DNA of 33,133 nucleotides from Flavobacteriales bacterium (GTDB lineage: Bacteria > Bacteroidota > Bacteroidia > Flavobacteriales_D > CANHHI01), in assembly GCA_947460225.1 (NCBI GenBank), contig CANHHI010000003.1:1-33133 (forward strand), in the 5' to 3' direction. Made by a program: the position numbers and the translations under genes. The notes beneath the pieces were generated by a model that was not told where the DNA came from, made no database searches, and was given only the letters and a program-made list of their open reading frames with translations. This document shows, one piece after another, positions 12,200 to 31,829 of the stretch (positions within the stretch are counted from its first letter, which is position 1; every line of letters starts with the position of its first letter).

Positions 12200-12267
12200 C
12201 AGACATCGTCCGGCATCAGAGATGCTTCAATCTGCACTGCGTGCAGGGCAGGCAAGGTTACTCCCTG
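12200..12267. repeat. Intergenic mini-hairpin array (copy A)
   Basis: CAGAC-atc-GTCCG (12200-12212, 4/5 pairs), GCATC-aga-GATGC (12213-12225), CTGCAC-tgc-GTGCAG (12232-12246), CAGGG...CCCTG (12244-12267). Confidence 0.6.
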
Positions 12268-31574: not shown

Positions 31575-31829
31575 GCATGTAAAACACATGCAAAACGTAG
31601 AGAACGGTTTCTAACCGCAGACATTGTCTGTTTTATTCTGCCTTCGGCAGGCGATGCAGAGGCAAAACGTAGGGAAAGGTTTGTAACAGTTCCAAAAAAT
31701 ACCATGCCCGTAGGGTCTTGCCATGGCAAGACCTCTGAATAATGCCAAATAAAAACAGAAAAAACGCCTGCCGAAGTCAGAAAACGTGCAGGGTTTGCCT
31801 GCAATAAAAGGGCAGGCTTCCGTCTGCCC
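31575..31829. repeat. Dense intergenic hairpin array (copy C) containing a 20-bp perfect palindrome and an 18-bp inverted-repeat pair
   Basis: Seven hairpins: 31575-31591, 31605-31617, 31618-31630, 31638-31650, 31714-31733 (GGTCTTGCCATGGCAAGACC), 31787-31803, 31810-31829. 17/18 inverted repeat 31636-31653 vs 31765-31782. 23/26 direct repeat 31590-31615 vs 31662-31687. Confidence 0.75.

Follow-up and report, generated by a model that had tools for sequence, protein, structure and literature searches.

GTAG- and CGTC-tagged REPs, together with REPIN/BIME arrangements, are intergenic palindromes of 20-40 bp that reach high copy number and often stand as inverted pairs (PMC3733652, PMC3116915). 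Their stems vary while pairing is kept, several families can share one genome, and some copies are inserted in other palindromes (PMC3733652, PMC3116915). REPs also occur in excess between convergent and tandem genes (PMC3733652). We describe here a repeat family, composed of A and B hairpins, that has all of these features in common with them. It is repetitive, conserved in structure, modular, biased toward intergenic DNA and restricted in lineage. The SDR4-SDR6 repeats of Nostoc, which Elhai et al. are said to have reported in 2008, are hairpin repeats of 21-27 nt with compensatory stem changes across families of one fold. Reportedly, these SDRs form nested insertions, have a limited taxonomic range and are single hairpins with no fixed spacer and second hairpin. 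Nostoc-type SDRs are cited in PMC3116915. Short palindromic repeats of Volvox organelles were judged selfish, and their mechanism is also unsettled (PMC2670323). Like the repetitive hairpin elements of sponges (PMC2800124) and the units described here, they combine constant loops with varying stems, are intergenic and are often mutually inserted; unlike ours, these elements belong to organelle genomes, and the Volvox loops are TAAA/TTTA. Among Bacteroidetes, the passages of PMC6006769 on TnpA-Y1 subclass 2.6 describe atypical repeated hairpins around genes. Compared by description rather than by sequence, those passages and our data share non-canonical hairpins repeated through Bacteroidetes genomes; however, the subclass 2.6 hairpins flank a class 2 TnpA gene, and we found none in the ~79%-complete draft.

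By its tags the A/B repeat is neither a GTAG nor a CGTC REP, and it is neither a MITE with matching ends nor an Rfam family. The units in our catalogue carry neither GTAG nor CGTC as an unpaired terminal tag or at any other fixed position, and a half unit consists of two short triloop hairpins, whereas REPs have one stem of 6-13 bp. As in REPINs and BIMEs, whose basic unit is an inverted palindrome pair, inverted pairs are prominent (B-to-B pairs outnumber A-to-A pairs by 19 to 3), with single and tandem units also common. However, REPIN halves pair into a long hairpin, whereas the halves of these doublets mostly have different stems. MITEs are marked by terminal inverted repeats that match each other and by short duplications of the target site; we found neither at A/B clusters. 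The units do share with the cyanobacterial SDRs compensatory variation in a common fold and nested insertions, a likeness of description for which we claim no membership. By analogy, the A/B repeat appears to work most like REPINs, Nostoc SDRs and Volvox organelle palindromes.

Results

The window, that is, the whole stretch of 33,133 nucleotides analysed, corresponds to contig 3 of an assembly in draft state, which spans 1.45 Mb over 158 contigs at ~79% completeness. We confirmed a chain of hairpins at 12,200-12,253, one member of a repeat family with dispersed copies. The initial annotation had described three paired hairpins there and a second chain of one shared architecture at 31.6 kb. 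Its sequences and coordinates match as written at both sites, and the second and third hairpins at 12.2 kb pair fully, but the first does not. This first hairpin, CAGACATCGTCCG (12200-12212; this and the following features of both chains are given on the + strand), is A-type with hybrid arms, CAGAC and GTCCG around the loop ATC. Its second pair is mismatched (A-C, or G-T on the opposite strand), which leaves 4/5 pairs. As read from its letters, the stem is a hybrid between CAGAC/GTCTG and CGGAC/GTCCG stems; the same hybrid recurs in L078, there with TTTTAAT directly after it. The abutting A-type hairpin GCATCAGAGATGC (12213-12225; GCATC/GATGC, loop AGA) is the most frequent A module (17/115 units). 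It is followed by TTCAAT (12226-12231), a variant of the TTTTAAT/TTTAAT spacer in our spacer census, and by the B-type hairpin CTGCACTGCGTGCAG (12232-12246; CTGCAC/GTGCAG, loop TGC), whose - strand loop, GCA, is a GNA triloop with C-G closure. GGCAGGC (12247-12253) begins a linker that follows B at other loci too (GGCAGGCAAACCCTGCACGTTTTCTGC). Our covariance model, R1, matches 12213-12248 with 29.6 bits (E 7.8e-6). Folding of the 12.2 kb chain alone does not surpass that of its shuffles (z from -0.9 to -1.3 under DNA parameters, from -0.2 to -1.1 under RNA parameters); the evidence lies at the family level.

The 12.2 kb chain lies in a divergent gap, with an rlmB-like gene on one side and a hypothetical gene on the other. 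A Bacteroidota-type -7 box, TATATTTG, spotted by eye at 12191-12184 on the - strand, adjoins it, and the chain stands where the -33 box of that putative - strand promoter would be. It might therefore influence this candidate promoter.

At 31.6 kb, the second and third hairpins are homologous to those at 12.2 kb, but the first is the end of a different repeat. A GTAG-tagged, REP-like palindrome of repeat family D13 (GTAGAGAACGGTT-TCT-AACCG, 31597-31617) is truncated at AACCG and fused to an A hairpin; its cut end is the hairpin CGGTTTCTAACCG (31605-31617; CGGTT/AACCG, loop TCT). The A-type hairpin CAGACATTGTCTG (31618-31630; CAGAC/GTCTG, loop ATT), a TTTTATT spacer (31631-31637) and the B-type hairpin CTGCCTTCGGCAG (31638-31650; CTGCC/GGCAG, loop TTC, GAA on the - strand) follow, with an R1 match at 31618-31652 (36.6 bits, E 6.2e-8). 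This chain outfolds its shuffles (z -4.7 with DNA parameters, -3.1 with RNA parameters). Downstream lie a second, imperfect palindrome of the D13 family, GTAGGGAAAGGTTTGTAACAGTTCC (31669-31693), and another GTAG-tagged palindrome, GTAGGGTCTTGCCATGGCAAGACC (31710-31733), with 8 copies in our sample. Other copies of the 31597-31617 type continue to TTCC. A/B units adjoin such palindromes at a recurrent base: 6/18 in the sample change to a CAGAC/CAGGC hairpin at the identical position (AACCG|CAG). Note that several families of GTAG-tagged REP-like palindromes are present (GTAGGGGCGTATTGCATACGCCC, GTAGGGTCTTGCCATGGCAAGACC, GTAGGGAACGGTTTGTAACCGTTCC and others), and the sample holds 74 sites with the tag, the commonest stem accounting for 11 of these; CGTC-tagged palindromes number 3. 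A survey of 2013 recorded GTAG repeats in other phyla and, for Bacteroidetes, none but CGTC repeats (PMC3733652).

We found many further copies. The sample comprised stretches totalling ~600 kb of the same genome, part of which were picked for containing matches and 395 kb of which were picked independently of them. A search of the genome with the 12.2 kb DNA gave 48 matches, almost all on the hairpins. A rule-based catalogue of the ~600 kb holds 115 A-spacer-B units, and R1 gave 193 matches there at E<=0.1, 42 matches at E<=0.01 in the unselected 395 kb, and 72 units in the complete 1.45 Mb draft under stricter filters. The initial annotation had proposed a covariance-model scan of the genome, in which finding no more copies would speak against it; the scan went the other way. 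The pattern CATNGYSYGTTTTAATCYG occurs 63 times in the genome and 0 times when reversed. Many units lie near contig ends (within the first 1.1 kb of C5, C7, C20, C24, C27, C43, C56, C73 and C90), which points to assembly breaks at the repeats and to a copy number higher than the one counted.

The basic unit is a hairpin A (5-3-5), a TTTTAAT spacer and a hairpin B with a 4-7 bp stem and a 3-nt loop. The A stems fall into a limited number of types (GCATC, CGGAC, CAGGC, CAGAC, CGCAC and a few rarer ones) with loops ATA, ATT, AGA, ATC or ACA. B stems form a separate set (CCGTGC, CTGC, CTGCC, CTGCACC, CTGCGCC, CTGCAC) with loops TTC, TAC, TGC or TTT. C-G closure of the loops, including that of A, is nearly universal in the 115 catalogued units, and in 94/115 the B loop reads GAA, GTA or GCA on one strand. 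GNA loops make unusually stable DNA mini-hairpins, according to a passage of PMC6479982 that cites Yoshizawa 1997 (its ref. 47). By analogy, the GNA-type B loops would fit recognition at the DNA level, without proving it.

Chance and base composition were ruled out as the source of the chains by shuffles and genome-wide scans. Triloop hairpins with stems of at least 5 bp number 779 against ~650 in shuffles; this weak excess makes single hairpins uninformative, so chains are needed. Pairs of GC-rich 5-3-5 hairpins whose centres are separated by 13-26 nt occur 3 times in the window (0-1 in 20 dinucleotide shuffles) and 27 times over the 395 kb (0-1 shuffled). At 103 spacer-plus-B sites picked blind to A, an A hairpin stands in exact register in 90/103, against 0-1 at shifts of 2-4; most of the 13 out-of-register sites have A off by one base and the spacer ATTTAAT. 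Among 38 distinct A sequences, counted as sequences and not as independent events, stem pairing is 91.1% (68.1% shuffled, <=39.5% with the partner slid), the covariation score is 0.608 (0.170 shuffled, <=0.130 slid), and both sides change at 4/5 stem pairs. The spacer was written as TTTTAAT in a few rows of this alignment, which leaves the counted pair columns unaffected. A stems are linked by single-pair changes through mismatched intermediates, and hybrids between main types include CAGAC/GTCCG, CAGGC/GTCTG and CAGAC/GCCTG; stepwise compensatory change thus accounts for much of the stem diversity. Stem families of A are independent of those of B (mutual information 0.163 versus 0.185 shuffled, p=0.62), and such free assortment requires recombination, nested insertion or independent change. 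The earlier suggestion of structural constraint or of a stem-swapping module therefore holds for the family, through A-stem covariation, free A/B assortment and many copies, but not as proof of swapping as an event.

Units are found singly, in tandem, abutting one another or as inverted pairs. Neighboring units are arranged B-to-B in 19 cases, tandemly in 16 (often with one base between) and A-to-A in 3. About half of the B-to-B pairs have a 26-27 bp centre like GCAAGATTACCCAGCGATTACAACGC, and a full composite of ~95 bp reads A-spacer-B, 26-bp centre, B'-spacer'-A'. B equals B' in 0/20 composites and A equals A' in 1/15, that is, 1 identical half observed against 3.9 expected for A and B together (P=0.055). 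At most, this hints that differing stems between halves would avoid unstable long inverted repeats. The composite at L267:883-976 folds into separate triloop hairpins on both strands with DNA parameters; with RNA parameters, the two spacers of the - strand also pair. Local tandem repeats were seen in self-comparison at L037:473-974, L270:2575-2966 and L289:895-1438 (offsets ~66, 123 and 102 bp), and at L255:1490-1640 a hairpin unit with its GTAGGTGCTTGGGTGTTTAGGA flanks is tandemly duplicated, the hairpins differing slightly between copies.

Units are mostly intergenic. Among 103 units, 21 overlapped an ORF (many of these short) and 28 lay too close to a stretch end; the 54 with both neighbors known, as greedy ORFs rather than curated calls, lie between convergent genes in 27 cases, tandem genes in 22 and divergent genes in 5. 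Against background gaps of 38/102/43, units are in excess between convergent genes (p=5e-5). At L039:570-609, a B'-ATTAAAA-A' unit is flanked by two 25-bp copies of CTTGCAACATAGATGAATTGCGGTG; at L264, L290, L032 and L293, CTTGCAACATAGATGAATTGCGGTG is single, with small changes, and has no hairpins, as in paralogous empty sites. Related cases occur at L283 and L299. Read against these paralogous sites, the one L039 insertion supports unit movement. Across the flanks of 122 clusters, we detected no general signal of target duplication, the count equalling permutation except for 4 long direct repeats. The few flanking direct repeats measure 16-25 bp, more than transposases usually produce.

Beyond this genome, CATNGYSYGTTTTAATCYG is absent from 398 genomes of the same order and from 395 of a phylum sample (the two samples overlap slightly). 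R1 gave one marginal match, at about chance level (E 0.006), in 99 relatives; a class sample of 118 genomes had no match at E<=1e-4. Absence from every related genome searched is as expected for a recently amplified element. Neither the genus nor the family was represented among the relatives, so "lineage-specific" means below the order level at best. No copies were found in viral contigs, phages or plasmids, and a loose-pattern scan of genome contigs gave nothing beyond chance among the matches listed. The initial annotation recognised no named family, and Rfam 15 agrees: in the window it matches nothing but a tRNA at the edge, and the related loci have no match above gathering score. A known structured RNA family was ruled out on this basis.

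A separate repeated, RNA-like element of ~200 nt occurs at L264:1700-1945, L039:230-470, L290:178-387, L040:9826-10062 and elsewhere, with 16 long copies in the genome and 4 short matches to its start. It has a Bacteroidota-type promoter (TTTG-N21-TACCTTTG), conserved hairpins and a terminator-like end, GTCAGGTTGGGTTTTTT. Its closing stem of 12-17 bp differs in each copy and is fully paired in 10/10 checked; the arms were chosen by eye, and swapped arms pair 52% on average. The predicted RNA fold has a z of -6.5. The element has no Rfam match and no BLAST match in 79 relatives, and it may represent a previously undescribed RNA family whose stem varies.

We found no mobilising enzyme linked to the A/B family in the ~79%-complete draft. 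The sole Y1_Tnp gene passes the NCBIfam IS200 model but not the REP-associated one, and the palindrome at its flanks, GCCCAGGGTTTAAACCCTGGGC, is of another kind. We therefore rejected this IS200-type gene as a cognate RAYT; RAYT-dependent REPs, in contrast, flank their own RAYT. The fifth of the genome that the draft lacks may contain a class 2 TnpA-type gene. At L051:1-235 (contig C30), three tandem copies of a unit with GCTCAGGG or GCCCAGGG-TTTAAA-CCCTGGGC precede the IS200-type gene. Related palindromes, GCCCACGGTTTAAACCGTGGGC, occur near hairpin chains.

Discussion

On balance, we think it probable that the 12.2 kb feature represents a degenerate member of a hairpin repeat family that is lineage-specific, non-autonomous and REP/REPIN-like and is spread by an enzyme acting in trans. 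Copies would spread by inserting into intergenic DNA and into each other. The enzyme, in the style of an HUH/Y1 transposase, would read a folded single strand and recognise it chiefly by shape. If shape and the C-loop-G tip outweigh the stem letters, stems would drift by compensatory change and modules would recombine. The 12.2 kb chain may have reached its divergent gap through chance or tolerance, and no host function would be required. We infer mobility in general, as well as the enzyme and the strand.

Hairpins could instead be kept for what they do in transcripts: terminating transcription in both directions, stabilising 3' ends or serving as RNase sites, with a GC hairpin followed by TTTT acting as a weak intrinsic terminator. 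The convergent-gene excess and divergent-gene deficit agree with this, as do the TTTT directly after the A hairpin and an RNA fold of the composite unit that beats shuffles (z ~-3.2). However, any insertion is also best tolerated in convergent gaps, stems of 5 bp make weak terminators, no T runs follow the B hairpins, and the starts on either side of the 12.2 kb copy are divergent. Folding is equal on both strands, with energies preferring neither one strand nor DNA over RNA, and mismatched stem intermediates, used as an RNA-versus-DNA test, have no strand bias (10 A-C versus 10 G-T). We consider such RNA-level roles unlikely as the explanation.

We rate as slightly more improbable a mutational origin with no enzyme in trans, in which intrastrand template switching (quasi-palindrome correction) makes and repairs the short perfect palindromes, which replication slippage, tandem duplication and ectopic recombination among copies then spread. 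Hybrid stems intermediate between the main types, direct repeats of 16-25 bp that resemble slippage beside some units, and the recurrent AACCG|CAG joins to other palindromes all suit it. Yet dozens of unrelated loci share the same few stems, TTTTAAT and the 26-bp centre, so that copying of units is needed and local repair alone does not suffice. The units might also be debris of a single longer MITE or IS with hairpin ends, the 26-bp centre being a remnant of its body. Inverted pairs around a constant centre do resemble a small element with structured ends, and units flank longer repeats such as the RNA-like repeat (0.2-0.5 kb). We regard this debris origin as very improbable: sampled copies, read by eye, show no coding parent, and the two ends fail to match as inverted repeats, with A versus A' and B versus B' differing in nearly all composites.

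Alongside the trans-mobilised, REP/REPIN-like reading, we put forward a tentative and rather doubtful idea, a mobile system that relies on shape only. An enzyme or replication process would need two consecutive C-G-closed triloop hairpins across TTTTAAT, one of them GNA-type. Stem letters would be ignored, stems would diversify and halves would recombine freely.

Hairpin repeats are common in bacteria, and their spread and recognition are mostly unsettled beyond GTAG REPs and RAYTs. Our findings indicate that hairpin chains beside promoters are not necessarily regulators and that assemblies of the CANHHI01-type lineage may break at such repeats. With more than 100 small separable modules in one genome, whose stems are finite in kind, covary strongly and assort freely, the question of whether sequence or shape is recognised becomes directly testable.
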